A stretch of DNA of 64,000 nt from Prorocentrum cordatum (taxonomy: Eukaryota; Sar; Dinophyceae; Prorocentrales; Prorocentraceae), in assembly GCA_963575745.1 (NCBI GenBank), contig CAUYUJ010013991.1, positions 141,501 through 205,500 of the forward strand, in the 5' to 3' direction. Both the position numbers and the translations under genes were made by a program. Below the pieces are notes generated by a model. It saw only the letters and a list, made by a program, of their open reading frames with translations. It did not search any database and was not told the origin of the DNA. Positions 8,850-28,098 of this stretch are shown here, piece after piece (the first letter of the stretch is position 1; each line of letters begins with the position of its first letter).

Positions 8850-9767
8850 TCACCCGGCCAGTTCCGCGGCCAGGGCGGCCCGGGCGCGCGGCCGCGCCGC
8901 GTCCGAGCCGAGCGCCGTCCGGAGCTGGCGAGCCGCGGCCGCCTGCAGGGCGACTGCCAGCTCGGCGCCCCAGTGGCGGGCGAGGGCGCTGGCCGCAGCC
9001 GCGGCAGCGTCGCCCCCGGCAAGCAGCTGCGCCTGGCCCCGCGCGAGCTGCCGCAGGTGCCGCAAAGCAGCGGGCCCGTGGCGGCCGCCCGTCTCCAGAG
9101 CCAGCGGTGCCATCCGACAGGGCGCGCGCCTGGCGGGGCACCGCTGGCGTTTTTCCGCCTCGGCGTCGCGGCAGACTGCGCCGCCGCGCAGCAGCGGCCC
9201 GGGGCCCCTCGACGTCGCCGGGCACGCAGTAGCGCACCGTGACATCGAGGAAGACCCGCGGGCAGTCCGCCCGCTGGATCTCCAGGTCGAGGATCGCCTC
9301 CTCGCGCTGCGCCGTCAAGCCGGCGGCGCCGCAGTGGGCGCAAGCCGCCCCAGCCGCCGGGCGCGCCGCCCGCGTCGCAACCAGCGCAGTGCCAGCGCCG
9401 CCGGTCCCAAGCTGGCACTGGAGTCTGCCGCGCGACGCGGTAGCCGCATTCGGCGTGGATCCGCTCCCGCGCGGTCTCCAGGTCGCCGCTGCGCGCTTTG
9501 GGCCCGCCCCCGCGCGGGCAGCGCCTAAGCGCGGCGGGCCCGGGCGCCGAGGGGGCCCCCGCAGGGCCGGCCAGCGCGCTGCCCTGAGCGGGCGCAGTTG
9601 TGGAAGGTCGCTCCGGCGGGGGCGGCGCCCTGGCCAGCAGCGCGCCGCCGAGCAGAAGTCGGCGTCCTCCGAGCGCTGCCTGGGGGCACCGGGCGAGGCG
9701 GTCTGCCGGGCCGCCGCGCGCGGGCCGCCGCAGGAGCGGAGCATTGCCCGGTCCTCTTCAGAGTCCA
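8850..9767 (-). pseudogene. LINE C ORF2, 3' half (downstream of the insertion)
   Basis: Starts in the middle of an ORF: DSEEDRAMLRSCGGP, which in dinoflagellate LINE polymerases follows the RT thumb region. Later pieces fit the C-terminal part of the same protein: C-x2-C residues near FHNCARSG, GDLETARERIHAECGYRV, ILDLEIQR then RVFLDVTVR, and MAPLALETGGRHGP before a stop at 8850. These pieces lie in three frames, so there are several frameshifts. The upstream half is at 26266-28098. The frame at 9765 (GAC TCT GAA) continues exactly the frame that ends at 26266 (TCC CTG) once the intervening 16.5 kb and one CA are removed. Confidence 0.8.
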
Positions 9768-9800
9768 CCTGAAGGCCCTGCGTAGTTAGTAACAGTTAGC
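9768..9800 (+). repeat. Left terminal inverted repeat
   Basis: 33 bases beginning CCTGAAGGCCCT and ending AACAGTTAGC. By hand alignment about 26 of 33 positions match the reverse complement of 26234-26265, with one gap; the outer 12 are identical. Preceded by CA, the proposed target-site duplication. A further inverted copy of the outer 11 bases (AGGGCCTTCAG) lies inside at 9951-9961. Confidence 0.85.
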
Positions 9801-10009
9801 GGAACTTCTAATTGTTATTGACGGAGTTATAACTAGTTAGGTTTGGCCAGTTTGAAGCTGTTTTTTAATGTTTATGTCATGTTTTTGCATCTCATGTAGT
9901 TGGACATTGGGGCATCATGATTGGGCGCTTCGTCGATTTGGATCTGCTCAAGGGCCTTCAGATTTTTTTATCGTCCTGGGGCAAACGCGACGGTCCGCAG
10001 CGCATCATG
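9801..10009. repeat. Left subterminal region
   Basis: AT-rich compared with its surroundings, with repeated GTTAG/AGTTAG words and the palindrome GTTATAAC at 9826-9833, also present at 26178-26185 near the other end. Such subterminal repeats are typical transposase-binding regions in CACTA-type elements (known biology; binding here is inferred). No gene. Confidence 0.55.
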
Positions 10010-12094
10010 TTAGCAACGTCGCGATTTGTATTCCACTGGCCAAATGCACGTGATGTCGTTCTCTATTTTCCTGTAAATCACAGGAGCTTTCAGCGAGGTC
10101 AGAGGCATCAGAACAGGGTCTGTATCATCTAAAAAGATGTGTCTGGAAAAACCTTCAGCGGCGTTCACACGCTTAGTTGCAAGCTGCTGGACAAGCACCT
10201 GCGACTCGCCATCGTCGCATTTCACGTGAAACCACACTTGCATTGCTGCATGCATCCCGCCCGACCCCAGAAGTACGATATCACCGCGCTTGATGCGGCC
10301 GAAATCTGTCATGGCTTCGATGCTGGAGACGGCTGTCTGCGTCCCAGGGCACATGCGTTTCAACGCATTCAGCAGCTTCTGTGTTGCTTTCGTTGGGTCG
10401 ACTAAGCCAGGTGAAACACGCATGGTCTTTAAATCGTGCGCGTGCTGCGCAGTGAGTTGGACCATGAGAGCCTTCTCTGGCCCCTTCTTGCACATGTGGT
10501 CTTTGGCGAAACGTTTTACGTTTTTGTGCTTGCGTTCCTGGACAAAGCAACTGAGCGACCCATGTTTTTCAAACATTTCTGGCAAATGTGTTGCCATATG
10601 GTGCTTATACACCCAATAGCTTTCACCATATGCGTCCTGATGGCACCGAAGATGTTTCACTATCGCTGACTCTATCTGCGCGGTCGTGACTGGAAGCCGC
10701 CGCGCCGCCGTGATGATTATGTCAACGGCATCTTGCAATGCCAGCATGCTTGCGATCTGGGGGGCCACTTGATCCGATGAAGGATGCATGGCAATTACTT
10801 GCCGAATATACCTGCACAAAACAGGCAACGCAGAGATCTCTTCTGAGGCACTTGCTTGGAGCTCACCAGTCTCCCATACAGTTGCGGCTGAGTGGTGTTT
10901 ACTCGGCCACGTCCACTTCATGAAATACTCATGCAACTCCATTGCATCACACAAACACTTGCACTGCGCATGCCCTAAAAGTGCTTTTACTTCTCTGTCG
11001 AATATACCAGACACAAAATAAATATGCATCCAGTCAAAGCAAATGAATGACGCAGGGAGATATCGCAAACCTGGGTCCAGCGCCATGTGTTCGGGGTGGA
11101 AGTTCCATCCGTTGTGCTGTGTGATGGTCGTGTACTGCCCCTCTGAAAACTCCCCCCGCTGATATTTATCCCAATCGGGTCGAAGTCGTTCCAGGATCGC
11201 GATGATTGTCGCGTCATCGTTTCTGCGTATCTTTGACGCATCCAAGCACGCGTCTGTCACAAAGAAACCAGATACATCATATGTCAAATAATCAAACTTT
11301 CTATTCAAGACGTTGCGACATAACGCACAGGGTTTGGAACCAGCGTGCCCTTTGTTCATGTGTAGTTCCCGCAATGCCTCTTCGTCCCCTATGACGCACG
11401 ACAGCTTCGCGACGATCGTCGCGTGCGACGTTGCGTCGCCCTTCTCTGGCACGTCTAATGTAACACCGCTCGTCTCAAAATTGAAACCACCAGCATAATT
11501 AAACACACTTCTTTGAGGGTCATCTTGATGCACTGCCCGATGCCACCTGGGATGCTTTTTTTTTATGTTTGCGCACCGCGCAGTGCTAAGCGTGAACCAC
11601 GCATCTTCGTTACCCAAGGACTCGTCGAACTCAGCGAACGACCAGTAAACAGCATCACCCCCCCGATAATCTTTCCCCTTAGCCAGGGGGTCTCGCGGTG
11701 AAATACCATCGAAATATAAAATGATGTGCCACGGCGACGCCAAGCTGCATGGGTGCTCCTGAAGTGAGCGGCGAAACATCTCCCTGACTGGAGCGCTAGC
11801 CTTGCAGCAGGAATACAAAAATGGCCCAGGACAGCGCGCCCAGTTCTCGAAAGTTCTACCACTGACTAAAGGCGTGTCTATGCAACGCAAGACGTTCCCA
11901 TATGCGTTCGACTCTTTGGCAATGATGTTTTCGCTTGCCCTGTATTGTGAGCTCCGTGAAATATTGTCGGGCAACCCATGGTCTCGCACATATTTTAGGA
12001 CACCCGACAGAGCACGCTGTGACAGGTATGAGCCCCTGTGGAGCTCCACCAGCGCCTCATCCGCCTTGCGTTTCCTGGCGGCGGACGCGGCCAT
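10010..12094 (-). CDS. CMC/EnSpm-Chapaev-like DDE transposase
   Basis: A 694-aa product from the ATG at 12094, chosen because a spliced-leader relic ends two bases before it; the frame is open for 51 codons further upstream. Features typical of CMC-clade transposases: ILYFDGISPRDPL (first catalytic Asp about residue 129), GDEEALRE followed by KPCALC (second Asp about residue 237, then a C-x2-C pair), DWMH at about residue 354 with Glu about 14 residues later, and a late HLPEMFEKHGSLSCFVQERKHK segment like the His/Lys-rich C-terminal block of CACTA proteins. The Asp/Glu assignment is by pattern only. No stop or frameshift. It lies just inside the left TIR, reading towards it, as expected for the element's own transposase. 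Expression and activity are unknown. It could also be a distant KDZ-like transposase. Confidence 0.75.
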   Translation of the reverse strand: MAASAARKRKADEALVELHRGSYLSQRALSGVLKYVRDHGLPDNISRSSQYRASENIIAKESNAYGNVLRCIDTPLVSGRTFENWARCPGPFLYSCCKASAPVREMFRRSLQEHPCSLASPWHIILYFDGISPRDPLAKGKDYRGGDAVYWSFAEFDESLGNEDAWFTLSTARCANIKKKHPRWHRAVHQDDPQRSVFNYAGGFNFETSGVTLDVPEKGDATSHATIVAKLSCVIGDEEALRELHMNKGHAGSKPCALCRNVLNRKFDYLTYDVSGFFVTDACLDASKIRRNDDATIIAILERLRPDWDKYQRGEFSEGQYTTITQHNGWNFHPEHMALDPGLRYLPASFICFDWMHIYFVSGIFDREVKALLGHAQCKCLCDAMELHEYFMKWTWPSKHHSAATVWETGELQASASEEISALPVLCRYIRQVIAMHPSSDQVAPQIASMLALQDAVDIIITAARRLPVTTAQIESAIVKHLRCHQDAYGESYWVYKHHMATHLPEMFEKHGSLSCFVQERKHKNVKRFAKDHMCKKGPEKALMVQLTAQHAHDLKTMRVSPGLVDPTKATQKLLNALKRMCPGTQTAVSSIEAMTDFGRIKRGDIVLLGSGGMHAAMQVWFHVKCDDGESQVLVQQLATKRVNAAEGFSRHIFLDDTDPVLMPLTSLKAPVIYRKIENDITCIWPVEYKSRRC

Positions 12095-12096
12095 GG

Positions 12097-12117
12097 TTTC
12101 AGCCCAAATGGCTACAG
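12097..12117 (-). other. Spliced-leader relic upstream of the transposase
   Basis: On the minus strand the sequence TGTAGCCATTTGGGCTGAAA matches the DinoSL core at 17 of 21 positions. Only two bases (CC) separate it from the transposase ATG, so the relic would be nearly the whole 5' leader. It carries T-to-G at leader position 13, as do the relics at 14037, 25835 and 33117. Confidence 0.75.
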
Positions 12118-12535
12118 ACTCGATAACGATGCCAATGCGCATCATAGGATGCATGCGTCGCGTTATGGTAGGGGCACGCTGCATGATGCATCTGAATGCA
12201 GCGAGGCGATAGATCACAACAGAAGTGCACGTTGCATATCGATGCATATGGCATGATACGACGTCGCATCAGAAGGACATGTAGGTGCATAGTGATGCAT
12301 ACGAAGTGCGACGGTAGCTCGCAAGAGAAAGGAGTGTTGCATATTGATGCATGCGACTTGCGATGAAAAGATCGCAACAGACTTGTGTTTTAGACATCAT
12401 GGTGCAACGTCATACAAGCAAGAGAGAGTTCGTCGATGTGGCGCCGCCCACCGCCGCGCTGCAGCTGCGATGCGAGCTCCCAGCCCTGCTGGTCCTCAAC
12501 AACCCCCTGGTCCTCCCCCTCCCCGCGTCGAGCAC
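12118..12535. repeat. Spacer with GATGCAT words every 50 bp or so
   Basis: No gene. GATGCAT, mostly within ATGCAT palindromes, recurs at roughly 50-bp spacing between 12145 and 12350. It lies upstream of the transposase gene and between it and the next gene, so it could hold regulatory or subterminal-type repeats. Confidence 0.4.
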
Positions 12536-13943
12536 CTAACACTTGGCGTCGATCCACGCCAGCGCCGCGCTCCAAGCCTCAATGCGATTCATCGTCGCAT
12601 TGCGGTCGAAGCGGACGCGGCGATCTGCCCTCCCCACAACGGCCCTGAACACCTTCTGTGAAGGCTTGTAGATCACGTAGCCGCACCTGTACGGCGCGTT
12701 GCACTCGCACGTCGGCGGCTTGGGCAGCACGGCGGGCTTTGGCACGGCAGCCGCGGGTCGCCGCATGGCAGGGGGCCGCGCCTTCTTCATTGGCACAGCC
12801 CCCTCGGCGTCTTCGACGCCTGCCCCGCCCTCGGCGTCGCCGACGCCTTCGCCAGCCGCGGAGGGGCGCGTCCTCGCCTTGGCGGTCTTGGCCCTCTTGG
12901 CGAGGAGCGCCCTGAGCTTCTCCTCCTCGTCGGTCAGGTCTGGCTCGGGCTCATCGTCGCGCGGCTCATCGCGCGGCTCCTCGCGCGGCGGAAGCTTCGG
13001 CTCCTGCTGCGGCTCCTCGCGCGGCGGGAGCTTTGGCCTCGGGGGCTCCAGCTCCACGCGCGGCTGCGCAGGCGGCTCGGGCGGCCTGAGAGCCGCGGCC
13101 GCCGAGTTGGCGAAGAGCGCCGCGCACAGCGGTGCACCGAACAGGGCCTGCATGACTTGCAACTGCCCGCCAGCCGTAGGGTCTGGGGCTGTCATTGGGG
13201 GCGCTGCAGCTGCAGGCGAGGTCTTCGCCGCGTAACGCCTGCTCGACTTCCTCGCGTAGTCTGGCGCGTCCGTCTGGATCTCCTCCAAGGCGGGCCCATC
13301 GTCCTTGTAAGCTGATTTCCACCACGGCTCAGCCGACATGTCCTCGGTGCGGTCGAAGTTCCACACCGTGGCGTACCCAAGCGTGGACCAACCCTTGCAC
13401 GTGATGGCCTTGGAGATGGCACCCTTCACCTCTCCGAAGAGCCTGAGCCAATCGCCCCCGTGCCCCTTGCCGCTGCCCCCACGCCGCGAGCGCGGCCATC
13501 TTGCCCTTGGAGCTCTCGGAGAGCGTGTGGGCGCCGATCAGCTTGCACCGAGCGGCGACCAGGCGTATGCACGCCTTCTCACTCAGGTCGCCGCTCTTCA
13601 GCGATTTGATCTCGCTCGCCGTGAAGACCCTCGATGCAATGCTAATCTCTTGCCATTGCTTGGATCCGCCTGGCATTGACAACATGCCTGTCTTGGTCCC
13701 GACGCTCTGGCACAAGCGTGCGATGTTCTCTTGAGTCCAAGTGTTCAGCGAGTGCTCCCTGATTGTTTTCACCAAGGCTGTCGCCTCGTCAGTACTGATC
13801 TGTGACAGGTTGTTGATCTTCATGAGGAGGCTGTCGTGCTGGTGCTGGGCCACGGCTGACGGGCACAGGCCACATGCGATTTGTGTCGATACCCACTCTG
13901 ACATGTGCTGCAGTTCCGCGCGGAGGTTCGGAACCGTCGTCAT
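12536..13943 (-). CDS. Unknown cargo protein, 469 codons with one frameshift
   Basis: Starts at ATG 13943, about 95 bases after a spliced-leader relic. The N-terminal half (MTTVPNLRAELQHMSEW, then a Ser/Lys-rich helical region to SSKGKMAALAAWG) is in one frame. It continues in the next frame as GGDWLRLFGEVKGAISKAI, an acidic/Pro-rich linker (PPREEPRDEPRDDEPEPDL), a basic stretch (KKARPPAMRRPAAAV) and a Cys pair (CECNAPYRCGYV) followed by an Arg-rich tail. The switch is at a run of five C (plus strand, 13476-13480) and removing one base joins the frames. Either an indel mutation or a sequencing error. The acidic and basic tracts suggest a nuclear protein, but I do not recognise a family. Confidence 0.55.
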
Positions 13944-13963
13944 ATGACGACAGTTCCGAACCT
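13924..13963. repeat. 40-bp inverted repeat centred on the start codon
   Basis: Two 20-base arms with one mismatch (AGGTTCGGAAC then GTCGTCAT, and its complement) and no loop. The axis falls immediately next to the ATG of the gene ending at 12536, so in its mRNA the start codon would sit at the tip of a hairpin. It could affect translation, or mark an insertion junction. Confidence 0.7.
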
Positions 13964-14036
13964 TCGCGCCTCGCGCCTCGCGATAGGTCGCGCCTCGCGA
14001 AAGATCGCGCTCCGCGATAGATCGCGATCGATCGCG
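13964..14036. repeat. Tandem TCGCG-rich leader segment
   Basis: Short CGCGCCTCGCGA, GATCGCG and CGATCGAT words follow each other between the spliced-leader relic and the start-codon hairpin. It would be the 5' untranslated part of the minus-strand gene. Confidence 0.5.
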
Positions 14037-14057
14037 ATCGAGCCCAAATGGCTATGC
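14037..14057 (-). other. Spliced-leader relic upstream of cargo gene
   Basis: On the minus strand CATAGCCATTTGGGCTCGA matches the DinoSL core at 16 of 21 positions and has the shared T-to-G change at leader position 13. It lies about 95 bases upstream of the ATG at 13943, on the same strand. Confidence 0.7.
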
Positions 14058-14980
14058 GACGCGGGCCTGTGTGATCTATATTCGAAACGAGAACCCGACA
14101 CCAACTGATGCCAACTTGCAATGCCCCACGCATCGAGGATTGGTGTCGGATGGCAGTGCGAGTCTACCACCTGCAACGGGTTGCATGCATCTTGGCATAC
14201 ATAGAACCGACGCGTATATGGCGATGTAAGTGTTGCCGCGTCGCGCATCCCCGCCAGCCCATCCGACTCGAACGAAGAGCGCAGACCACCTGCAGTTGTT
14301 ATCATCATATGTCTCATCATCATTTTCGTTAAGTGCGCGCGCGCTGATGCCGAGGGGACGGTCCAAGACATCACTCACAGAACTGGCGTTCTGGATTTAA
14401 CCTCACCAATCGGGAGCATCCCAAAGTCGCGATCCTCCGTATCCTCCTCCTCTTCCGCCTCATCCTCTCATCTTCCCCTCCTCATCCCTCTCCTCCTCCC
14501 CGTTGCGGCCTTGGGGCTCTATATGTGGTTCCTCTTGGGGTTTTGGTGCTGCGTCATCCTACAGATATCGTGAGGCGTCGGATGATCCTATGACGCGAAA
14601 AGGCGGAAACGCATAGCACCAATGCCATTCAGAGTGCGAAGCAGTTGTGAGGGAGCGATGGGGGGGGGGGGCACGGCTTAGTAGCGTAGTAGGATGGGCA
14701 AGAGCATCAGCACCAGCAGCAACAGGAGGACAACGACGAGGAGGGACGAAGAGGGAATGATGTGATGGGGAGGACGAGGATGGGGATGAGGATGAGGATG
14801 GGGAGGGAGGGGGGAGGAGGAGGCGGAGGAGGAGGGAGGAGGAGGAGAAGGGGGAAGATGAGGGGGAGGACGAGGCACCTGCGCTATCATGCCGACATTA
14901 TCATCCCAGACTCATCTTGCATTGATGCATGCAGGTTTTTTCTCTGACCCCTCCACCCGTCGTCCGTCGCCCCCGCACCC
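14058..14980. other. Intergenic, no gene seen
   Basis: Mostly unique sequence. A G12 run lies near 14660, a GGA/GAT-type purine tract spans 14700-14875, and a short TCC tract lies near 14435-14500. No supported reading frame. Confidence 0.6.
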
Positions 14981-15421
14981 CTAGCGGGCATCGCGCTCGG
15001 CGCGCGCCAGCTCAGTCTCGGCCCGAACGTGGGCCGCGCTCGCATCATCCGCGTCGAGCAGCGCGTTCATCCACGCGTCCTTGCTCTTCAAAAACGCATT
15101 GAACCTCTTCTCTGCCTATCGGGGGGGGGAGGGGGGGGGGGGGCGATCGCACGGAGGCGGGTGGGACTGGCGACGCCGATGGGGCCATTGACTAAGGGGG
15201 TGGACTCGAGGGCCCATCCCCTCCCCCCTGGCCTCGAGGGGCCCTTGTGATGTTGTTAGTTAACAACCGCCTGCCTTCTTCTCAGCCTGCGTCTTCGCTG
15301 CTTTGGCATGCTTCAATGCCGCCTTGGCAGTCTTCACTGACCGCTGGCGTTCCTGCTTTTCATCCTGCAGCTCAAAGCGCACCTGCGCTTCCATCGCGAT
15401 CGTCTTCGCTGATTTTCCCAT
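14981..15421 (-). CDS. Small Lys/Ala-rich helical protein, one intron
   Basis: Two minus-strand exons give a 93-aa protein. Exon 1 (15421-15275, 49 codons) starts MGKSAKTIAMEAQ and is Lys/Gln/Ala-rich to TQAEKK. Exon 2 (15115-14981) reads AEKRFNAFLKSKDAWMNALL and ends in an RAERDAR stop. The joined product is predicted to be almost all helix, probably coiled coil. The intron (15116-15274, 159 bp) has a GC donor and AG acceptor, phase 0, with AGGCAG at both junctions, a feature of dinoflagellate introns and introner elements. No family recognised. Two plus-strand frames nearby (15977 and 16522) have the same size, charge and helical character and may be paralogues. Confidence 0.6.
15116..15274 (-). 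other. GC-AG intron flanked by AGGCAG direct repeats
   Basis: Joining AAG|GC...TAG|G restores one open frame across the exons. It contains a G/C homopolymer tract near 15121-15143 that would serve as the pyrimidine tract on the minus strand. Confidence 0.55.
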
Positions 15422-15428
15422 GGGCACG

Positions 15429-15498
15429 TGAACCACAAATGGGGGCGCGTAAGCCACGCGTGAACTGGTTCGCAAAGGTGGGCGAATGAACCACAAAT
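15429..15498 (-). other. Two weak spliced-leader-like words
   Basis: On the minus strand CATTTGTGGTTCA occurs twice, about 58 bases apart, just upstream of the ATG at 15421. Each resembles CATTTTGGCTCA with one extra G and one change (about 14 of 21 over the leader). They may be tandem, eroded SL relics or a chance repeat. Confidence 0.3.
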
Positions 15499-15549
15499 GC
15501 TGCTGACGGTTTGCCAAGCGTTCAGCCCCGCCATCGTTGGCGACATGTA

Positions 15550-15827
<278 letters not shown>

Positions 15828-15976
15828 TGAGTAGGGCAGTGATGTGTGATCACATGGTTGGCACTCATGCCATGCGACCGCGTCGCAGACTACATGCGTT
15901 TTCACGCAGCCGAGTTGGTTGAGGGCTGAGAGAACGCAGCTTGTAAGCTGCGGCGCGCGCGCGTGTGTGCGCGACT

Positions 15977-16198
15977 ATGCCTGCCATGTCAGCCGACTTG
16001 AAGGCGCTGCGTGCCAAGCACCGCAAGGAGGACACGGAGCACTTCAATGAAAGGTTGGATACCCTGATCAGGCACAAGCAGCATTGCCAGAAGATGTCCA
16101 AAACGGCGGACCGCAAGGCAGCCAGTATCTCATGCATGACATGTTGCAAGTGGTTGCAATCCATTCACGTCGAAATATATTTGCTGATTAGAGCATAA
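15977..16198 (+). CDS. Small basic helical protein, possibly first exon only
   Basis: Plus-strand frame of 73 codons from ATG 15977 (or 66 from a second ATG at 15986). The first 45 residues (MSADLKALRAKHRKEDTEHF and on to KMSKTADRKAA) are charged and helical, like the product ending at 14981. The last 25 residues look unrelated, so a donor site may lie near 16120 and the rest may be intron. Function unknown. Confidence 0.35.
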   Translation: MPAMSADLKALRAKHRKEDTEHFNERLDTLIRHKQHCQKMSKTADRKAASISCMTCCKWLQSIHVEIYLLIRA

Positions 16199-16204
16199 AC
16201 GTTT

Positions 16205-16400
16205 GGGCATCACCCGATGCAATTGTATGCATGTTCGGTTGTGTTGAAACGCATTGCAATCGGCTGCGAGTAGTTCGCGTCGAAGGGCGCACTTGTGACA
16301 CTATGGGGAGGGGGGGGGGGGGCGTTGAGGCAGCGCCCAATGCAGTCGTATGCATGCGCGTTCGGTTGCGTTGACACGCAGGTATGTACTATCATGATGT
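16205..16400. repeat. Diverged 40-bp direct repeat
   Basis: The word CGATGCAATTGTATGCATG with GTTCGGTTGTGTTGAAACGCA at about 16214 recurs at about 16338 as ATGCAGTCGTATGCATG with GTTCGGTTGCGTTGACACGCA. A G13 run near 16310 lies between the copies. Confidence 0.6.
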
Positions 16401-16521
16401 CAGGGTGTGAAATTGGTTGTGTAATGGCTTGGCGTTGCGACTGTGGTCGCATGGTCTCAAGCGGTTGGGCGAACGGTCGCACTTAGCAACGGCGTGTCAA
16501 CGCCGCGTCTGAACCCCGTCC

Positions 16522-16734
16522 ATGCCCACTCGAAAGGCAGACGCTGCATACAAGAAGATGGAGAAGCTCGTGAAGAAGGCGGAGCAGGCCGCGGATTCGT
16601 TCACGTTGCTCTTGGACAACGCCAAGATGTGTAAGGGTGCGGTTGATCGGGCGAATAATCGCCTTGTGGAGGCAGGTGCTGCCGATCGTGCGCGGGGGCG
16701 CAAAGCCTTGGGTATCGGTGAATACGCCGCCTGA
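16522..16734 (+). CDS. Small helical protein
   Basis: A 70-aa plus-strand frame from ATG 16522, MPTRKADAAYKKMEKLVKKA, then LLLDNAKMCKGAVDRANNRL and an Arg/Ala-rich end. Non-repetitive, Lys/Ala-rich and probably coiled coil. Spacing of LLD and R-x3-L residues resembles exon 2 of the protein ending at 14981, so I suspect a paralogue, but similarity is weak. TGGTCTCAAG about 65 bases upstream resembles the end of the spliced leader too weakly to call. Confidence 0.4.
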   Translation: MPTRKADAAYKKMEKLVKKAEQAADSFTLLLDNAKMCKGAVDRANNRLVEAGAADRARGRKALGIGEYAA

Positions 16735-17894
16735 GTGTGGGTGTCGGGGCGTACTTAGATGGGGGCTCGTTGGGGTTGTGCGTGCAAACGCATGTATGCG
16801 AGCCTTCAGGTTCTCGTTGCAGCTTTTCGCGCGATAAAGCACCCTGCGGAGAGACCGATGACACGAATACGAATGAGGACGAGGAGAAATAAGAATAGGA
16901 TGAGGAGGGTTAGGCGGTGGAGGTGAATGAGACGGAGAAGGAGGATGATGGGGATGAGAATGGTGAGGAGGGATAGGGAGGAGGAGAAGGAGGACGAGGA
17001 TGAGGAGAAGGGGGAGGGCGAGCAGGAGGAGGAGCAGGATGAGACGCCCCCGCAGTCGTCTCCGCCGCCGTCGAACTCGTCGCAGCCAACTCGTCGCCAC
17101 CAACTCTTCGCCGTCGCCGTCGCTATCGCAGCCGCCATGGCAATTGCTCCTCCTCATCTTCTTCCCCCTCCTCCTCCTCCTCCTCCTCCTCCTCCTCCCC
17201 ATCGTCCCCCTCTTCCTCCGCGTGCTCCTTGTCCTGCTCCTCCTCATGCTCCTCCTCCTACTCCTCCTCATCCTCGTTGTCGTTCAATCGTGGTCGTCAC
17301 GGTGGCCGCCGCCCTCTCCTGCACCGCGCGCGCAGATGACGGCGCAGGCGACGGCTTCGACGGCGACGGCGGGAACGAGGAGGAGACATGATGAGAATGA
17401 AGAGGGTGAGAATGAGACGGAGTAAGAATGAGGAGAATGAGGATGATGAGGAGGAGAATGAGGATGAGGAAGAGGAGGCAGAGGAGGAGGAGGAGGTGGG
17501 GGAAGATGAGGAGGGTGATGAGGCGGAGGAGAAGGAGGAGGAGGAGGAGGCGGCGGCGGAGGAGGAGGAGGAGGAGGATAAAGGTAGGAGGGGGAGGATG
17601 AGGATGAGGGGGAGGATGGGCCTTCCCCTCCTCCTCCTCCTCCTCACCCCCCACCTCCTCCTCAGAATCCTCCCCCCTCTCCTTCTCCTTGTCCTCCTTC
17701 TCCCGCGCATCCTCCTCTCATCCCACTTCCCCTTATTCTCGCTCACGCCACGCTCATACATCACTTATCAACATGATCCAGCGCAGCCGCGGGCAGCGCA
17801 GCCAAGCAGACAAGCCAATTCTAGGCGCAACGTCGACCACGAGCGAGATGGAGACCCTCGAAGTTTACTCTAAACATGAGCTCAAACCCTTGGT
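16735..17894. repeat. GGA/GAG and CTC microsatellites, no gene
   Basis: 16860-17035 and 17385-17620 are purine-rich GGA/GAG/GAT tracts. 17155-17275 and 17622-17720 are CTC-rich. All long frames here are Glu/Arg or Pro/Leu/Ser artefacts. 17721-17894 is unique sequence without a recognisable gene. Confidence 0.7.
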
Positions 17895-18190
17895 GTCGTA
17901 TGTCAGAATCTCACATGCGACAAATCTGTCGTATGTCAGAATCTTACATACGACAAATCTGTCGTATGTCAGAATCTTACATACGACAACGTTGTCGTAT
18001 GTAAGAATCGTACATACGACATCTCGCTCTTATATATCATAAGGATTCTATTAACACATCCGTCGTATGTTAGAATCTTACATACGACAACGGTGTCGTA
18101 TGTAAGAATCTTACATACGACAACTTTGTCGTATGTTAGAATCTTACATACGACAACTGCGTCGTATGTTAGAATCTTACATACGACAAC
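17895..18190. repeat. Array of eight 27-bp hairpins at 33-bp period
   Basis: Units start at 17895, 17928, 17961, 17994, 18062, 18095, 18128 and 18161. Each is a near-perfect palindrome (GTCGTATGT, then a short centre AGAATCT, then ACATACGAC) followed by a six-base spacer such as AACGTT or AACTTT. The spacing breaks once, where 35 extra bases follow the fourth unit. Spacers vary while the palindrome is conserved. The 33-bp period keeps both strands open as SYVRILHTT repeats, probably by chance. Not a CRISPR array: spacers are too short and no cas genes are present. Confidence 0.9.
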
Positions 18191-19679: not shown

Positions 19680-19862
19680 GGTGCTGCTGGTTGCACTGGT
19701 GATGCTGCTGCGGGTGGTGCTGCTGGTTGCACTGGTGGCGCTGCTGCAGCTGGTGCTGCTGCGCGTGGAGCTGCTGGATGCACTGGTGGTGCTGATGCAG
19801 CTGGTGCTGCTGCGCGCGGAGCGCTGGTAGCTGCTGCGCGTGGAGCGCTGCAGCTGGTCGCG
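19680..19862. repeat. CAG/CTG-rich repeat upstream of paralogue 1
   Basis: Irregular CTGCTG, TGGTGCTGCTGG and TTGCACTGG units. On the minus strand it reads as Gln/His-rich or Ser/Thr-rich low complexity depending on frame, so I treat it as leader and not coding. Confidence 0.65.
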
Positions 19863-20327
19863 CACTGTCGCGACCCAAGCAACGCTCGGGCCTAAACGGC
19901 GGTGGCAACGGAGGAGGATGAGGTCGGGGAGGGATATTCACATCATAGCGTAGCATTGCATGGCATACCATAACCAACATCATGGTTCGCGGTACTGAGT
20001 TCATTGTGAGGTCGTGTGATGCTGAGTTAATTGTGAGGCTGTCTCGAGCGAGCGCAGACGACGATGTTAACGCATCTCATTTTCAAGTTCACATCCCCAA
20101 GTCAACTCTGAAACAACGCATGCGTTGCTGCATGCACCCATGAGTGCACAGCGCGAAACGATTCGCGACGCAGCCGCGCCCCCTCACCCGAATCGCCCCC
20201 TCACCTGAATCGCACCCCCCCCCCCCTCCCCCCATTTGCGCGCGCTGCTGTTTCTGGACCGAGGCCCCCTGGAGGACCCCTTTCTCCTCCCAGGGGGGCG
20301 TGGCCGCGCGCGGTGGCGCGCGCGGCC
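19863..20327. promoter_or_regulatory. Intergenic region between the divergent GYDKG genes
   Basis: About 460 bp separate the two divergent paralogues and must hold the start of both transcription units. A C-rich run near 20214-20230 and two GGTACTGAGTT / TGCTGAGTTAATTGTGAG words near 19990-20040 are visible. No promoter consensus is known well enough in dinoflagellates to call a site. Confidence 0.3.
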
Positions 20328-21576
20328 ATGGCGCGCCATGACAGCGCCGAGGCGCTGGCGCGCCTGCACGAGGACTGCTGGGGTGAGAGCCACAGGAGAA
20401 GGATGAAGGGGGATGGGGGGGACGAGGAGGAAGACGAGGATGATGAGGAGGAAGAGGAGGAGGAGAAGGAATAGGAGGAGGAGGAGGAGGAGGAGGGAAA
20501 GGAGGAGGAGGAGGAGGAGGAGGGAGGTCGGCGGATTTTCGCCCTCCATACAGGAGCTCCAGCGGGAGCGGCGGATCACAGACAGGCTGCTCGACGTCAC
20601 CGAGCTCTTGATTAAGGGCTACGACTACGACAACAGTGGCTACGACAACAGTGGCTACGACAAAGGCTACGACAAGGGCTACGACAAAGGCTACGACAAG
20701 GGCTACGACAAAGGCTACGACAAGGGCTGCGACACGGGCTACGACAGCGATGGCAAGGGCTACCGCGACGGTGGCAAGGGTTACGACGATGGCAAGGGCA
20801 AGGGCTACGACGGTGGCAAGGGCAAGGGCTACGACAGTGGCAAGGGCCGCGAGAATGACGGCAGCGGCAAGGGCCGCGACAAAGACGGCGACAGCGGCAA
20901 GGGCCACATCAGGCTGGCGAAGGAGCAGCGTGACGGGCTGCAGGACATGATGTCGGACAGCGGCAAGGCCGACGACAAGGGCGACGGCGGCACGGGCAGC
21001 GCCAAGGGCAGCTCGAGCAAGGGCTTCGACAAAGGCTACGACGGCGGCAAGGGCAACGACAAAGGCTACGACCCGTACGGCAGCTCGAGCAAGGGCTACG
21101 ACACGGTCTACGACACGGGCTACGTCAATGGCTACGACAAGGGCTACGACAAGGGCTACGAAAAGGGCTACGACGATGGCAAGGGTGCTGATGGCATCGG
21201 TCGCGGCTGTACAAGCTACGACGGTGGCACGGGCATCGACGACGAGGCCATGGGCTACTACGACGGTGGCAAGGGCTACGATGGTAGCAAGGGCAGCACC
21301 GACGGTGACAAGGTCTACGACGGTGGCCAGGGCTACGACGATGGCGAGGGCTACAACGGTGGCAAGAGCATTAACGACGGTGGTAAGGGCAAGGCGACGG
21401 CCCTCGACAGCGGCGGGGGCTACGATGACGGCAAGGGCCCCGACGAGGGCAAGGGCATGAGCATGGGCAGGGACGCCGATGTGCCGAACAGCGGCATGCG
21501 CGACGATGGCCCTCCGCATCTTGAGCTGAGTTCTGTTACTGAGTCCCCGCCGCCAGCGGGGCCAGATTCGGACTGA
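20328..21576 (+). CDS. Tyr/Gly/Asp-rich disordered protein with GYDKG-type repeats (paralogue 2)
   Basis: Main exon 20554-21576, preceded by a good acceptor (TTTTCGCCCTCCATACAG). A possible first exon starts at ATG 20328 or 20338 and ends at a GTGAG donor at 20383, leaving a 171-bp purine-rich intron; the first-exon frame is uncertain. The exon opens with ELQRERRITDRLLDVTELL, matching RSRVADGLLDDLEL of paralogue 1. GYDKGYDKG repeats follow, then HIRLAKEQRDGLQDMMSDSG, then GYDDGKG-type repeats to an acidic end (TESPPPAGPDSD). Here repeats lie on both sides of the conserved block; in paralogue 1 only before it. Function unknown. Confidence 0.55.
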
Positions 21577-22264
21577 GCACGCGAGGCAAACATAGAATAG
21601 AGATTGGAGGGGGAGGGAAGGGGAGGTGGGAAGGCGAAGAGGGAGTGGAGCTACTGGAAGCTAAGCGTCGTCTGGCGCATCTCCCGTCGGCGAGTGAAAA
21701 CAGAGGGCGGCCCATCACCTGGTGGCGAACCATCGCCTGGCGAACCATCACCTGGCGGCGAACCATCGCCTGGCGAACCATCGCCTGGTGGCGAGCCATC
21801 GCCTGGTGGCGAGCCATCGCCTGGTGGCGATCGCCTGGTGGCGAGCCATCGCCTGCTGCGACTGGCGGGTCATAGTACTCCTCGGACCCATCAGCTTCAG
21901 CCTCATCACGTGCCTCGTTATCTAAGCGATCACGAAGGGATTGGGCTGCGTTGTTGATGTACGTGGGAGTCCAATCGTCCACTCGCTCCTGCAGACGCTT
22001 GCCGTCGACCACCATGAACACCGTCCTGCGACGTTTGTCGCATTTCACACCTTCCACCCCTGCTGGTGCTGACCGCAAGCGATGTGTTGCCTCCTGACTG
22101 CATGAAACCGCTGCTGCGATAGATGCAACCCGTATGTACTCAAGTCCCGTTGGCGTACATTCGACCCACACCTTCTTAGTAGCATTCAGCTCAAACAGAA
22201 GCTTCAAGGTAACTGCATCGTGATGCAAATGCTCATCACCATGGTCGCACTGGACTGCGGGCAT
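21536..22264 (-). CDS. Unknown protein; N-terminus related to the gene at 23363-25779
   Basis: A 242-aa frame from ATG 22264. Residues 10-60 (DEHLHHDAVTLKLLFEL, then VWVECTPTGLEYIRVASIAA) share HLH-x-DA-x4-LL and a CT-x5-Y core with the N-terminus of the large gene ending at 23363, so this looks like a diverged or truncated paralogue. Later: VKCDKRRRTVFMVVDGKRLQ and WTPTYINNAAQSLRDRL. From about residue 145 the frame enters a GGCGAT/CCACCA minisatellite (21715-21850), where a 14-base unit among 18- and 15-base units breaks the frame, so the last 90 residues are probably not original. The 3' end overlaps the end of the plus-strand gene at 21576. Confidence 0.45.
   Translation of the reverse strand: MPAVQCDHGDEHLHHDAVTLKLLFELNATKKVWVECTPTGLEYIRVASIAAAVSCSQEATHRLRSAPAGVEGVKCDKRRRTVFMVVDGKRLQERVDDWTPTYINNAAQSLRDRLDNEARDEAEADGSEEYYDPPVAAGDGSPPGDRHQAMARHQAMARHQAMVRQAMVRRQVMVRQAMVRHQVMGRPLFSLADGRCARRRLASSSSTPSSPSHLPFPPPPISILCLPRVLSPNLAPLAAGTQ
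21715..21860. repeat. CATCGCCTGGTGGCGAAC minisatellite
   Basis: About nine units of 15 or 18 bases built on CCATCGCCTGG with or without TGGCGA. One 14-base unit near 21825 shifts the frame of the overlapping minus-strand ORF. Confidence 0.85.
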
Positions 22265-22269
22265 ATATA

Positions 22270-22690
22270 TCGAGACAGTTTCTGGTAGACCACCATCCCG
22301 TTAGGGCACATGTCTAGAATGCGTTCTCTTCTACGCCCTTCACCCCCTTGGGGGAGTGGTTTGCCTGGACGGTGGTTCCAAGAAGGGCTCATATATACTT
22401 CAAGATGTCCACGGATATGTCCCAATATCACGCGATGCCTCAACATGCAGGCATGGATATCACGCGACCCAAGATTGCCCAAGCTTGTCCAAGATATCAC
22501 GCGATCCAAGATTGCCCAAGAAGTCTCAAGGTCAAGAGATCGATCCAAGAGTGGTCCAAGAGCGGCCTATTCACGCAAGCGAATTAAGGCATCTCCTATT
22601 CCTCCTCCTCATCCTTTTTTTTTGTCATCCTTATGCTCCGTCCTCCTCCCCCTTTCCCTCCTCCCATTTCTCCTCCACCATCCCCCTCTG
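22270..22690. repeat. Spacer with ATATCACGCGA repeat
   Basis: Between 22410 and 22570 the word ATATCACGCGATCCAAGATT, followed by GCCCAAG, recurs three times with spacing of about 40 bases, partly degenerate. 22620-22690 starts a T/C-rich tract. No gene. Confidence 0.6.
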
Positions 22691-22692
22691 TT

Positions 22693-23112
22693 TCAGCCCC
22701 TCCTCCTCGCCCCCCTCCCCCGCCACTCCACCTCATCATCCAATGTATCATCCTCCTCCTCTCCTTCCTCCTCCCCTGGTGGGAATGCGCGAAGCGTCCA
22801 CGATTGCGACATATCCAGAGAACTCCTATTGTTCTTAATGACGCTGGCCCTGTCGCAATCTTGCTGAAGCAATGGGTCGGCCTGCTTCAAGTGGTCCCAA
22901 ATGGCCTCGGTGCAAGCGGCGTTGCGCATCTTCAAGATCTGATCGAAAAACGAATTTGTCGCCAGAGGCGATTGGCTCTTGGCGGGGTTGGGCACAGATA
23001 TAATTTTTTGCAGCTGCCCATCCGCTCTCGACAGCTCCACGAAGAGCCCCCCTGCCGTATGCATCACCGCCCTCGGGACCCATGGCTCGCGATCCTTAAG
23101 GCCGCCCCCCAT
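22693..23112 (-). CDS. Unknown cargo protein
   Basis: A 139-codon frame from ATG 23112 (MGGGLKDREPWVPRAVMHTA). The segment GLFVELSRADGQLQKIISVP and a following helical part (TEAIWDHLKQADPLLQQD) look like ordinary protein. The final 35 residues (GEEEGEEEDDTLDDEVEW) come from a T/C microsatellite and may lie past the true end or a splice site. No family recognised. Same strand as its neighbours at 21536 and 23363; it could be an exon of a larger gene. Confidence 0.4.
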   Translation of the reverse strand: MGGGLKDREPWVPRAVMHTAGGLFVELSRADGQLQKIISVPNPAKSQSPLATNSFFDQILKMRNAACTEAIWDHLKQADPLLQQDCDRASVIKNNRSSLDMSQSWTLRAFPPGEEEGEEEDDTLDDEVEWRGRGARRRG

Positions 23113-23362
23113 CGATGACCGTGCGGAGCTGCACGCGCACTGCCATCTGCAGCTGCAGTGCGTGCGCAGATGCAGCGTGCACTCGCTTGGACACAGCCAC
23201 GCGCCTGCGGGCCGATGCAATGGACAATTGCAGACGAGTCCGATGCGTGTTGACGCAATGATGCAACGATTGCAGAGGAACGATACCGACGATGCTTTCA
23301 TACATTTCATAAACACCCCCACGACACATGGATGTGTAACCGATGCTGCCAACACGCGAGCC
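23113..23362. other. Short spacer, no gene seen
   Basis: Unique sequence with several GATGCA and TTGCA words similar to those at 12145-12350. It separates the end of the 747-aa gene from the next frame. Confidence 0.5.
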
Positions 23363-25779
23363 TCATCGCTGCCTGGCCTTCTTAGCCGCGGGCGCAGCAG
23401 GCACATCGTCTACCTTGCGCTTGGGCATGAGCGATGCCAGCTGGGCGCTAAGGACATCGCCCTTGTTGATGGCGCACTTGTTTGTCAAAATTGGTACATG
23501 CACTGATGGGGCAGCTGTAGACTTGACGGTCTTGAGCTTCATGTTGGGGGTGCCGTGCTCACCTGAATCCTGTGCGAGCCAGAAGGGGATGACGAGCGAA
23601 GACGGTGCCTGCTTCAGCCCTCCAACGCCAGTGTTCGTCTCAGCCTTAGGCATCTTGATGCCACCACTGGGGGCCAACACGATATTGAACGTCAATCCCT
23701 TGGGGTCCTTGTATGTCTTCATGAACACATGCCCACACTGAACTATATCAGTCTGCTTCTTCAAGTAGATTGCCGAAGAAAGTGGGACAAACACCAGCTC
23801 TTCAGCCTCAAACGAACGCGTTACGGTGAGAGCACGAAGCTTAACAGGCGTAATCACGCCACTCAAGTACTTGAGACAGTTGCCGTTCTGGCTGTATACA
23901 TCATCCAAGGCCAGCCTGATTTTGGCCTCCTCGATACCCCACTGGTAATCGACAGACTTGAGGGGGCCATGATCAGCGAACTTGTCGGTCGTTTCCTCTA
24001 TGGGGGAGCAGCGGGAAAAAAAAAGATGAGACATGACGATGCAGAGCCAAATGAGATGAGGGAACGACGAACGAGAATTCAAAGGTGTGGGGGTGCACAT
24101 GCATTCCGCATGCATTGCGACGAGGTCGCAAGACTGTCCTTCATAATCGTGGACACGACGAACTTGCCACGTAAGAAGTCGTCGATGGGGTGGCATGTCG
24201 CACTGCCCGTGGCCTGAAGCTTCAACTTCACGCCAGTCGCAGCGTCGATGGAGATCAGCTCGTAAATGTTCTCACCCAAGGTGTCGCTCGCCAAGGCGAC
24301 TTTGGCGCCAACCTCAAACCCCTTGTCGATGAGCTTGTCCACTTGGTTCGACCACTTGCCCGAAGCGGTGTGCTCTTTCACATCTGAGCTACGCGCCTGC
24401 CCTGTCACGGCTTTGGATGCGCCCTCGCGACCGATCTGCTTCCATGGGCTAGCAACTGCTTTGCCAACGTGCGTTGCCAACGCAGTGGTGAAGCTGACCC
24501 CGATGTCATTCAGCGTCTTGCAAGTGCCTAAGCGCTCATCGGGCTTGTTGAACACGAAATGAACTACGCGAACGTCAGTCAATCCCACGATGGTCCCGTA
24601 GGCGACCGTGTCTGCCGTGATGCCCTCACCGCATGCGATCTGTCGCACTTTCTGAAGAAATGCATCGGCCACCATTACAATCGTAGACTTCTTATCGCTC
24701 GACAAGGCGGTCACGTCGCCTGGCTTCAAAAGCATCTGATGGCCATCCCTCGCGAACTTACCCGTCGCACATGTCATCGCCTTCATGCATGCGAGCTTGG
24801 ATGTCGCAGCGGCCCCCTCATGCTTGATCTGCACCTCGGCGAGAGACTTCGCCATTGAACCCGTGACCACGCACTGGGAGGTCAGCTGCCGCGAGAAGTC
24901 GCGAAGCTCGTTCAGAAAGATCGGGTTGCCGAGGCCGCCAGACAACTCCTTCACATATTTTACTAAGCCATCGATCTCCCCAGGAAAGAGAGAGCCTGCG
25001 CGAGTCGCCTCGCGGATCACACTATCCCAATCGATCATGGTGCCACCCGTGTGGTGTCGGTTGGCAATTGCTGCGATCTTGCACATGAGACTCATGCGAG
25101 ATTCGCATCTGGCAATTTGTTGGCCTGCATTGCCAGCCTCCTGAGCAAGATTACTAATCCACGGGAACTCCTTCACGAACTCGTACCGAAAGACCTTCCA
25201 CTCAATTCCTTCGTCACACGCCTTAGCGTAGTCTGGTTGAACCTCCCGTAACCTCGTCAGTGACAATTTCCCTTGGTGCGAGATTCTGTCGAAACGCTCT
25301 GGCATGACCGTGGGTACTGGAACCCCTGCGTTGATGCAACGCAAACCCATGGATGTGTGGCCGCACGTATAGGATGCGAACTTTGCATCGCAATCATACT
25401 GCGGCAGCTGGCCCGCTGAGTCCTCCATTATTTTGAAATTGAAGTTCTTGATTGTATTGTACTCAGGCGTGCCCACTGGTGGAAGTTCCATGCAAGCTGG
25501 ATTCTGGAGGGCTGAGTTCTTGAATCCATTTTTGAAGATCTTGGAAATCAAATCCATAACCTCGCTCGGAATGATTCCATATCCGTAACGATTCTCTGTG
25601 CACACCATCATATACTTCGAGTGTATTTTTTCTACCCTCAGGCAGTCTATGCCTCTTGCAATGCTGCATGCGTCTTCAAGTAATGAGACCACCGCTGCAT
25701 CAGGATGCAAGTGCATGTCCTTGATGGCCATCATCTTGGGGCGGACCTCCGCGATCTGCTGTTCACGGCAGGCGTTCAT
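23363..25779 (-). CDS. Unknown 747-aa protein, two exons, nuclear-localisation-like tail
   Basis: Exon 1 from ATG 25779 to 24171, exon 2 from 23997 to 23363. The join (C|GTGGCAAG ... CCCCCATAG|AG, phase 1, intron 173 bp) is my best fit; the acceptor has a clear pyrimidine tract, the donor is less certain. N-terminus MNACREQQIAEVRPKMMAIK then HLHPDAAVVSLLEDA; middle ASYTCGHTSMGLRCINAG, EFPWISNLAQEAGNAGQQIA and DFSRQLTSQCVVTGSMAKSL; exon 2 begins near ETTDKFADHGPLKSVDYQWG. The C-terminus PKRKVDDVPAAPAAKKARQR has two basic clusters like a bipartite nuclear signal. A spliced-leader relic lies 56 bases upstream. No stops or shifts. Family not recognised; its N-terminus resembles the frame at 21536-22264. 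It sits next to the right end of the transposon, opposite the transposase, so a role in transposition (a second element-encoded protein) is possible but unproven. Confidence 0.65.
23998..24170 (-). other. Proposed GT-AG intron, 173 bp
   Basis: Exon 1 frame hits a stop at 24079 and the second frame opens across the same stretch. Acceptor CCCCCATAG at 24006-23998 follows a T9 tract. Donor chosen by phase. Confidence 0.5.
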
Positions 25780-25834
25780 CACGCCGCGTGCAGGAGGACG
25801 CCACGAGCGCCAGCAGCAATCCTCGCCCAAACGG

Positions 25835-25854
25835 CTGGAGCCCAAACTCTAGTG
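25835..25854 (-). other. Spliced-leader relic upstream of the 747-aa gene
   Basis: On the minus strand CACTAGAGTTTGGGCTCCAG aligns to the DinoSL core with about 15 of 21 matches and one gap. It keeps TAG and TTTGGGCTC and the T-to-G change at leader position 13 seen in three other relics. More eroded than those; 56 bases upstream of the ATG at 25779, same strand. Confidence 0.55.
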
Positions 25855-26233
25855 ACATTCAAAAACATGTGCAACAGGAGGGTTGCGAATTCGAAATGAT
25901 ATGTTGCATTTGCAATGCACAACATTCTTGTAACGCTCGATACAATATTCTGAATGCGTTCGCACGCAAGTCTGGATCATGATTTCCGATATGCGTGATC
26001 CCGAAAATCCAGACACATGCATGCGTTTCTGGAGGCAACATCCAAGGACAACCCGATGCAGCAGCTCTGTTTTCAAGTAAGCATGTAAAAGTTAGCGAAG
26101 TTAGCAACTTCGCTAACTCAAGCTATCTACCTCCAAATGCACCGCCCGAGTTAGCCGACTTAGTAACATTACTAATGGTTATAACTTACTTGCAACCTAG
26201 TTGCAACTTACTTATAACCTACTTACATGTGCT
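25855..26233. repeat. Right subterminal region with hairpin
   Basis: AT-rich. A perfect inverted repeat with 13-base arms and a 3-base loop lies at 26090-26118 (AGTTAGCGAAGTT). Further in: GTTATAAC at 26178-26185, TTGCAACCTAGTTGCAA, and tandem ACTTACTT/ACTTATAACC words. Resembles the subterminal arrays of CACTA-type elements. No gene. Confidence 0.6.
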
Positions 26234-26265
26234 GCTAACAATTAGTAAGGCCGAGGGCCTTCAGG
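26234..26265 (-). repeat. Right terminal inverted repeat
   Basis: 32 bases, on the minus strand beginning CCTGAAGGCCCT and ending TTGTTAGC. Partner of 9768-9800. Followed by CA (26266-26267), the proposed target duplication. Confidence 0.85.
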
Positions 26266-28098
26266 CAGGGAACCCATCAAGGAAGCGTAATTCTTCTGGT
26301 CAATCCTTGCAGTGAGCGTCCGCTGGAGCTTCTTGTGAGGCTCGGTGGCAAGCTCGGCCCAAGTCGGCAGCCTGTCTGGGCCGTCTTGGCCCCAGCGGCG
26401 CGGCGGCGGCGGCAGCGCGGCGAGCTCCGCGAGGCTGCTCCGGCAGGAAGCGGCCAGCGGCAGCGGGCTCGTGTCCAGGTCGTCCAAGGAGGCGAGCCCC
26501 GTCCTTTCCCGCAGGGGGCCCGGGTTCTGCGCCCAGGGGGCGGCCCAGGCCGCCGGGGCCAGCTCCCCCTGGCCACGGAGGCCGCGGCCGCCCAGTCGCA
26601 GCGGGAGCCTGCAGCGCAGCTGCTCCGGGGGCGTGAGCTGGTCCAGCCGCGCGAGCTCCTCGTGGGCGGCCAGGAGGGCGGCGTCGTAGGTCGCCGCCGC
26701 TGGCCGCGCCTGCCCCGGGGGCGTCGTGCGCAGCGTGTGCGTCAGCTTGCCGGTCCCGCAGTGCCGCAGGATCAGGGCCGCCGTCTGCGCCGCGGGCAGG
26801 TGCGGGGGGGCCAGCGAGGGCAGCTCGGCCACCTTCGAGAGCAACCCGGCGGCCCGCGTCGCAGCGTCCTCAGCGCTCTCCGTCGCGCAGTCAGCTGCGC
26901 CCAGGTCTGCCCGGCGCCCCTCGTCTGGGCGCGGGAGCTCCCGCGGCTGCGGCTGCTCGGAGAGCGGGGCCCCGACCAGCGTCAACCCTCGCGTTTGCCA
27001 GTGCGCCTCCAGGCCGGGCGGGCACGCGGTCCGTGGTGACCACGCCTGCGTTTTGCCCGGCTGCAGCTCCAGTCCCAGCGGGGCGAGCGCCTCTTGCGCC
27101 GCCGGCAGCACCTCCGCGGCTAGCTCTGGCGGCGCGAGAACGACCAGGTCGTCCAAGTAGGCGAACACGTGGACGTCGCCCGGCGGGAGCCCGCGCGCCT
27201 CTGCCCGCCGGCGCAGGTCCTCCTCCAGCGCGCGCAAGTGGGGGCGCAGGCCGCAGGCGAAAAGGAGGGGCGCGAGCGGGTCGCCCTGGTCGACGCCGCT
27301 AGTGGCGCGCAGGCGGTGGCAAGTTCCGTTGCTGTCCCCAAAAAAGTACTGCGAGCGGCGCCGGCAGAAGAGCTCCGCGAAGGGGAGGGGGGAGGGATCC
27401 ACCTCCGCCAGCTCCCGGATGCAGGCGGCCCGGCCCGCGGCGCAGAAAACGTTTTTTGCGCCCAGGGCGGTGGCCACAAGGTGTGGCGAGGCTTCCAGCA
27501 GAGCGCGCACCGTGTGCGCCAGCCGTTCTGTCCCGGCGGCCGTGCCGATTGCAAACTGCTGCCTGCCGAGCGCGTCTCGCAGGTGGTCCCGTCGCGCGGT
27601 TGCCAGCGCGCGGCCCACCAGGCGCCGCAGGATGTTCGGCGCCGCGATGGGCCGAATGCCGCGCTCGCCCTTTCGGAGCGGCGTGAGTTTCGAGGTAGCG
27701 AGGGCGGCGGCGGCGCTCTCGGGGATTCGCCCCTCGGCCAGGCGGTCGCAGACGCCGCAGAAGGCAGCCAGCGCCCCGGGGTCGGAGAGCACCACCCGCC
27801 AGTGCTCGAACCTGCCGCCGCCGACGGCGGCCCCTCCTCCTCCTCCTCCTCCTCCTCCTCCTCCTCCTCCTCCTCCTCCTCCTCCTCCTCCTCTGCTTAG
27901 CGGAAGTTTTTCGGAGCCCAGTTCTCGCGATTTTCGGCGCTCCTGCCCGAACATTTTTCGGCAATCGTTTGGAACAGCAAAAAAAACTTTCGCTGTGCTC
28001 CACGAACACAGCGACCTGCCCGATCTCCCTTTGGAAACCCCGCCACCGTTGGCCGAACTCGAGGTCCTCTGATCTTCCTCCTCCTCCTTCCCCTCCAC
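26266..28098 (-). pseudogene. LINE C ORF2, RT half (upstream of the insertion), motif A Asp lost
   Basis: Open minus-strand frame. RT-like sequence begins after a CTC microsatellite (27833-27896) at about 27830: SKLTPLRKGERGIRPIAAPN, motif B GVDQGDPLAPLLFACG, motif C FAYLDDLVVLAPP at about 27145-27170 (both Asp present), and thumb-region sequence to HKKLQRTLTARIDQKNYASL. The expected motif A Asp reads Gly (ALGAKNVF near 27450-27470), which should abolish activity. The frame leaves the LINE at 26266 and ends 24 bases inside the inserted TIR (TAA at 26242). The 3' half is at 8850-9767. Residues before the microsatellite are probably not part of the element. Confidence 0.85.
27833..27896. repeat. 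(CTC)n microsatellite within LINE C frame
   Basis: About 21 tandem CTC/TCC triplets, read as poly-Gly on the minus strand. It marks the 5' limit of recognisable LINE C coding sequence. Confidence 0.9.

Follow-up and report, generated by a model that had tools for sequence, protein, structure and literature searches.

In the excerpted text of PMC12730594, the CMC/CMCT group of DNA transposons is defined by a transposase with a DDE triad that carries C(2)C and H(3-4)H motifs between the second D and the E. Enlarged EnSpm elements of 16–20 kb with 4–5 open reading frames (ORFs) are described from the red alga Chondrus crispus in an excerpt of PMC6431247. Here, we describe a large transposon in the dinoflagellate Prorocentrum cordatum, located in a window of 64 kb (the whole stretch of DNA that was analysed; assembly GCA_963575745.1, contig CAUYUJ010013991.1, positions 141,501–205,500, forward strand). 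The element proper occupies positions 9768–26265 of the window (16,498 bp) and lies within a long interspersed nuclear element (LINE). We interpret it, with high confidence, as a multi-gene DNA transposon that was amplified recently and belongs to the CMC/RAG-Transib transposase lineage, based on its inverted ends, 2-bp pyrimidine–purine (YR) duplications, near-identical copies, empty sites, and a five-gene set that recurs in a sister element. The first-pass annotation of the window, made from the letters alone, had proposed a large cargo-bearing transposon that has terminal inverted repeats (TIRs) and a CMC-like transposase and is inserted in a LINE, and the other copies, the 2-bp duplications, the empty LINE sites, and the sister bear this out. 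Its limits (9766–26267) enclose the transposon but include both CA copies of the target duplication. The ends and the host site are organized as follows.

8089–9765, minus strand: downstream part of the host LINE frame, in which RVT_1 and a codon-phase signal are both absent
9766–9767, no strand: left copy of the target-site duplication (CA), matching the right CA
9768–9779, plus strand: left 12-bp TIR, CCTGAAGGCCCT, with its exact complement at 26254–26265
9780–9962: left subterminal region, with AGTTAG at 9784, 9794, and 9835 and GTTATAAC at 9826
26090–26118, right side: subterminal hairpin of 29 nt with AGTTAG repeats, from folding
26254–26265, minus strand: right 12-bp TIR, perfect complement of the left TIR
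26266–26267, no strand: right copy of the target-site duplication (CA), matching the left CA
26266–28107, minus strand: upstream half of the host LINE, with RVT_1 (E 1.4e-10) and a codon-phase bias

The ends had been called near-identical with a CA on each side; they are in fact perfect 12-bp TIRs. With up to one mismatch, this 12-bp sequence is matched four times in the window against an expectation of 0.66, and an internal copy with one mismatch lies in the left subterminal region (9951–9962). Matching subterminal repeats, also claimed before, are present inside the ends as AGTTAG and TTATAAC, but the likeness of the two ends past 12 bp is patchy (local alignment score of 65 versus 58 for the best of 200 single-base shuffles). 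Base composition changes at both borders, the GC content being 0.795 outside and 0.502 inside at the left, and 0.482 inside and 0.756 outside at the right.

The first-pass annotation had asked beforehand for an assembly search for further copies, for the same cargo in them, for CA/TG-type 2-bp duplications, and for empty LINE sites, and all of these were found in the window's own assembly (4,128,499,153 bases in 21,875 contigs). A search with the first 335 bases of the element, in which 40 of 203 candidates were scored, listed 40 matches, consisting of the window and at least 39 other left ends at 97–98% identity. Among these, 20 start at query position 3 (9768), 10 at position 2, and 10 at position 1, a spread that is to be expected where the flanking dinucleotide has letters in common with CA. 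Of the 40 listed copies we examined 31: the window, 10 others that were each retrieved in two pieces no longer than 10 kb, and another 20 for which we retrieved the ends alone. Because the sample consists of the best-scoring matches, it leans to young, well-preserved copies. Both ends were located in 26 of the 31, with end-to-end lengths of 16,295–16,681 bp, except for one 17,265-bp copy that holds a run of N. As for the other five copies, the match in C16664 is confined to the first 2.25 kb and stops inside the transposase, the element in C1776 passes the contig end and lacks its last 68 bp, and the right end of C16544, C14544, and C19610 was not found within the stretch fetched.

A 2-bp target duplication matches in 23 of the 26 two-ended copies, and all 23 are YR dinucleotides (CA 7, TA 6, TG 6, and CG 4). 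Nine copies, including the window and C1776 minus its last 68 bp, could be aligned through; they share the same cargo and are pairwise 98.1–99.2% identical over the whole interior.

The host site itself was reconstructed by deleting 9766–26265 (16,500 bp), after which the two halves of the LINE read through as a single open frame (1,173 codons, minus strand). What the earlier statement that excision restores the LINE frame describes is an insertion; no excision event was seen. Frame restoration alone is weak evidence, because the downstream half has no codon-phase signal; the strong evidence comes from the assembly. When the joined flanks (with one CA) were compared with the assembly (40 of 180 candidates scored), 37 of the 42 matches listed cross the junction elsewhere at 74–95% identity; these are empty paralogous target sites. 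The window's own site matches only as query 1–228 and 227–500, with an overlap of exactly CA, and the remaining three rows comprise one partial match and two fragments.

The interior contains the following features, for which identities refer to the sister element described below.

10010–12094, minus strand: transposase, 694 codons from ATG, with DDE, C(2)C, and H(3)H motifs, a RAG1/Transib-like model, and a predicted C-terminal BAH-like domain
12548–13450, minus strand: C-terminal part of protein B, 30% identical to its sister counterpart
13488–13943, minus strand: N-terminal part of protein B, 46% identical to its sister counterpart (one 523-codon frame)
17894–18190, no strand: array of 33-bp palindromic (hairpin) units, from repeat search and folding
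18411–19676, minus strand: protein E (GYDKG), with two conserved ends (37% and 53% identical to those of its sister counterpart) and a Gly/Tyr/Asp/Lys repeat between them
20536–21573, plus strand: second GYDKG frame, an inverted partial paralogue of protein E, unmatched in the sister
21923–22297, minus strand: second part of protein D, 33% identical to its sister counterpart
22807–23109, minus strand: first part of protein D, 42% identical to its sister counterpart (within one 339-codon frame)
23372–23998, minus strand: protein C, second exon-like part, from the sister comparison
24136–25779, minus strand: protein C, first part, from database relatives and identity groups in the own genome

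Protein C has at least 25 database relatives (98% down to 34% identity) and at least 69 matches in its own genome (59 of 2,053 candidates scored). The latter fall into several identity groups (72%, 63%, 53%, and 49% versus P0019), pointing to further families of this transposon. From the 53% group we obtained the sister element, which is located on C20527, comprises 14,628 bp, and has the termini CCTGAAGG..CCTTCAGG. Its transposase is 56% identical to that of the window, and its protein C shows 44% and 39% identity to the two parts of the window's C. In both elements the genes for C, D, E, B, and the transposase occur in identical order and orientation, all on one strand. Since this arrangement is kept in a diverged sister, the five genes are probably a fixed complement and not accidental cargo. 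Divergence between window and sister is highest at third codon positions in the transposase, B, C, and D. The sister encodes each of the proteins B, D, and C in a single frame (523, 339, and 763 codons, respectively), whereas the window has each in two parts, which points to introns or to damaged frames in the family of the window element.

The first-pass annotation had counted at least eight other candidate frames beside the transposase. Five genes of the element, the transposase among them, have a sister counterpart, but the second GYDKG frame and the frames at 16483–17283 and 22289–22867 have no match in the one sister element (frames 15260–15889 and 17340–17873 lay outside this comparison). 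The two latter antisense and low-complexity frames were rejected as genes, as they also score negative in a codon test (16486–17283 and 22289–22864); this test is not independent, because two genes of the same element, those for the transposase and protein C, served to train its model. Likewise, of the two paralogous disordered proteins proposed, the second is indeed an inverted partial paralogue of E, but without a match in the sister. The hairpin array was recognized correctly: three of its 33-bp tandem palindromes were folded and gave strong hairpins, and the array lies in a stretch common to the aligned copies. Rfam and tRNA scans found nothing useful.

The transposase has at least 14 database relatives with 87% to 30% identity. 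In a 15-row alignment, counting non-gap rows, Asp-128 is conserved in 14/14, Asp-236 and Cys-255/Cys-258 in 15/15, and His-498/His-502 and Glu-519 in 13/13. By motif pattern, Asp-128, Asp-236, and Glu-519 are the putative catalytic acidic residues. The predicted structure adopts a RAG1-like fold resembling RAG1/Transib, with 8–12% sequence identity in the alignments to Transib and RAG1, and its C terminus is predicted to assume a BAH fold. The frame had been described as an intact CMC-like transposase. It is open and carries the CMC motifs, but a short stretch between T-runs near 11499 and 11564 is off-frame relative to the relatives. Two indel places common to all eight other aligned copies sit at T-runs and enclose this stretch, and such homopolymer indels may be read errors.

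Searches with the proteins gave few leads. None of the element proteins tested passed the Pfam cut-off (the sister's five were included and the second GYDKG frame was left out), and ten window frames of the element matched no Pfam family. Sequence searches of the PDB with the transposase, C, B, and D returned chance-level matches only. For protein C, no family was found in PHROGs, NCBIfam, or Pfam, its model had no Foldseek match at E ≤ 0.001, and hhalign against P1 ParB alone gave a probability of 0.1%, so that this profile comparison lends no support to a ParB kinship. P1 ParB is atypical among ParBs. A SET-like reading of the last part of protein C was dropped, as searches gave it no support. 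Comparison of alignment A1 with GTDB genomes led nowhere.

The anatomy of the element suggests a cut-and-paste mechanism with a 2-base YR stagger. The DDE transposase would bind the 12-bp TIRs together with the AGTTAG and TTATAAC repeats next to them, cut the element out, and join it at a pyrimidine–purine step with a 2-base stagger, the filling-in of which would create the target duplication. The BAH-like tail may direct the transposase to chromatin. Judging from their conservation, proteins B, C, and D could be partners in transposition or regulation, and the disordered Gly/Tyr protein E may keep the complex together. Most copies would decay after insertion and be mobilisable only in trans. 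The many copies with few open transposases suggest that a minority of copies provides the enzyme in trans.

Several observations weigh against a recently amplified multi-gene transposon or narrow the basis for it. No movement was observed. The duplication is mismatched in 3 of the 26 two-ended copies (C14367, C18133, and C14035, with TA/CA, TG/CA, and CA/TG), perhaps from recombination between copies. These flanks are all YR, and two of the pairs are reverse complements. In C19877 the right end was set by hand beyond a small deletion, where automatic placement gave a mismatch; leaving this copy out, matching duplications number 22 of 25. Furthermore, 17 of the 26 two-ended copies are known by their ends only. 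The sister comparison rests on a single copy, of which 17.5 kb was fetched; its flanks differ (TG and CG), and in protein E divergence from it is not clearly raised at third codon positions (0.44/0.35/0.43). The transposase model reaches a pLDDT (predicted local distance difference test) of 69.8, and the frame is open end to end in two of the nine aligned copies, one being the window copy with its local frame difference.

The state of the genes across the nine aligned copies adds to these points. The first and second parts of C are open in 6 and 8 copies, the first part of B in 8, the two parts of D in 9 and 6, E in 8, and the second GYDKG frame in 8. Control frames 16483 and 17340 are likewise open in 8 of 9, so openness across copies does not mark genes and was not used as gene evidence. 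Singleton ratios of nonsynonymous to synonymous polymorphism (pN/pS) show no general sign of selection (transposase, 1.22; C, 0.82; D, 2.15; E, 1.71; first part of B, 0.26 with 15 changes; second GYDKG frame, 0.56; control frames, 1.01 and 0.61), and the common changes of a two-copy subgroup in the second GYDKG frame are 21 nonsynonymous and 2 synonymous. With small counts, the singleton values are roughly those expected from copies decaying after a recent burst.

An origin of the interior by accident, through host DNA captured by or nested in a short CMC element at one locus, would agree with its richness in simple repeats and with the two inverted paralogous frames. However, the same interior is present in eight other copies elsewhere (one without the last 68 bp at a contig end), and the sister has an identical gene order; the aligned copies and this order largely refute accidental cargo, and we give it hardly any weight. 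An assembly artefact is even harder to credit: one copy holds a run of N and homopolymer indels are possibly read errors, but the borders agree and the flanks differ in 26 copies spread over different contigs, which refutes it in practice. An integrated DNA virus or a Polinton-like remnant using a DDE enzyme for integration would account for the size, the five genes on one strand, and the proteins without Pfam matches above cut-off. Yet the proteins tested, which cover part of the interior, matched no capsid, polymerase, ATPase, or protease in Pfam, and a search of IMG/VR with alignments A1 and A2 brought up no relative, making this origin very improbable.

The window element could be another enlarged EnSpm/CACTA element of the Chondrus crispus type whose extra frames are accessory genes of the same sort. 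The transposase motifs, which are those of the CMC group, and the published Chondrus families are in keeping with this, but the ends are CC..GG and not CAC..GTG, the duplications are 2 bp and not 3, and the Chondrus elements are known by description only; we regard it as unlikely. Somewhat short of an even chance, we tentatively propose a separate eukaryotic TIR superfamily whose mobile unit would be the five conserved genes, encoding a RAG1-like transposase with a BAH-like chromatin reader fused to it, a ParB-like-fold protein, a disordered Gly/Tyr scaffold, and two other conserved proteins. Such elements would insert at YR dinucleotides and form many families, perhaps in dinoflagellates at large.

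Genomes of dinoflagellates are very large and repeat-rich, and the host species is bloom-forming. A complete, recently amplified 16-kb element with ends, target rule, empty sites, and a gene set that a deeply diverged relative also has makes transposition biology and genome share directly testable. Finding, in a protist, a transposase that is RAG1-like and ends in a BAH-like tail bears on the diversification of RAG-type recombinases, and two families of uncharacterised environmental proteins (relatives of the transposase and of protein C) are placed in a transposon context. Elsewhere in the window we observed a second LINE-type reverse transcriptase (382–2109, minus strand, RVT_1), about 1.8 repeats of a 261-bp unit (5768–6244), long GCCTCA repeats followed by 5.5 copies of a 73-bp tandem repeat (45181–46780), and a Copia-type RVT_2 frame (59327–61816, minus strand).

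We found no report of this transposon family in the open-licence literature, and no open-licence paper combining BAH domain, transposase, and EnSpm. Three features for which we found no description there are the retention of a five-gene set in diverged elements, the tail resembling a BAH domain, and the targeting of YR dinucleotides. CACTA elements have subterminal repeats, and the large ones of plants often hold captured gene fragments, whereas the window element has a gene set common to diverged elements. Transib target duplications are 5 bp, in contrast to the 2 bp found here, a difference between the element and Transib/RAG1. Starship giant transposons have a tyrosine recombinase captain; the recombinase found here, in the part of the frames scanned, is DDE/RAG-like.

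As excerpted in PMC12730594, CMC/CMCT elements have 2–5-bp duplications, in agreement with the 2 bp in 23 of 26 copies, and in most cases 5'-CA..TG-3' termini, whereas window and sister have CC..GG. Within this group, Plavaka, ESTA, Lanisha, Mirage, and Chapaev share, by description, the motif set of the window transposase. Plavaka also has 2- or 3-bp duplications, but its ends are described as TGT..ACA or CATCA..TGATG. EnSpm/CACTA elements likewise possess TIRs and a DDE transposase with C(2)C and H(3-4)H, but differ by their CAC..GTG ends and 3-bp duplications (PMC12730594, excerpt). By its transposase motifs the element is CMC-type, whereas its termini and target duplications agree with the published description of neither EnSpm nor Plavaka. 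Chondrus EnSpm resembles the window element in size and ORF number by description alone (PMC6431247, excerpt), and a soybean CACTA element of 20.5 kb is of similar size (PMC2613891, excerpt). Because such elements are known, neither the size nor the presence of several genes is new, and the "new class" of the first-pass annotation was too strong for an element with a CMC/RAG-like transposase; the BAH-like tail of this transposase is a further difference from EnSpm/CACTA.

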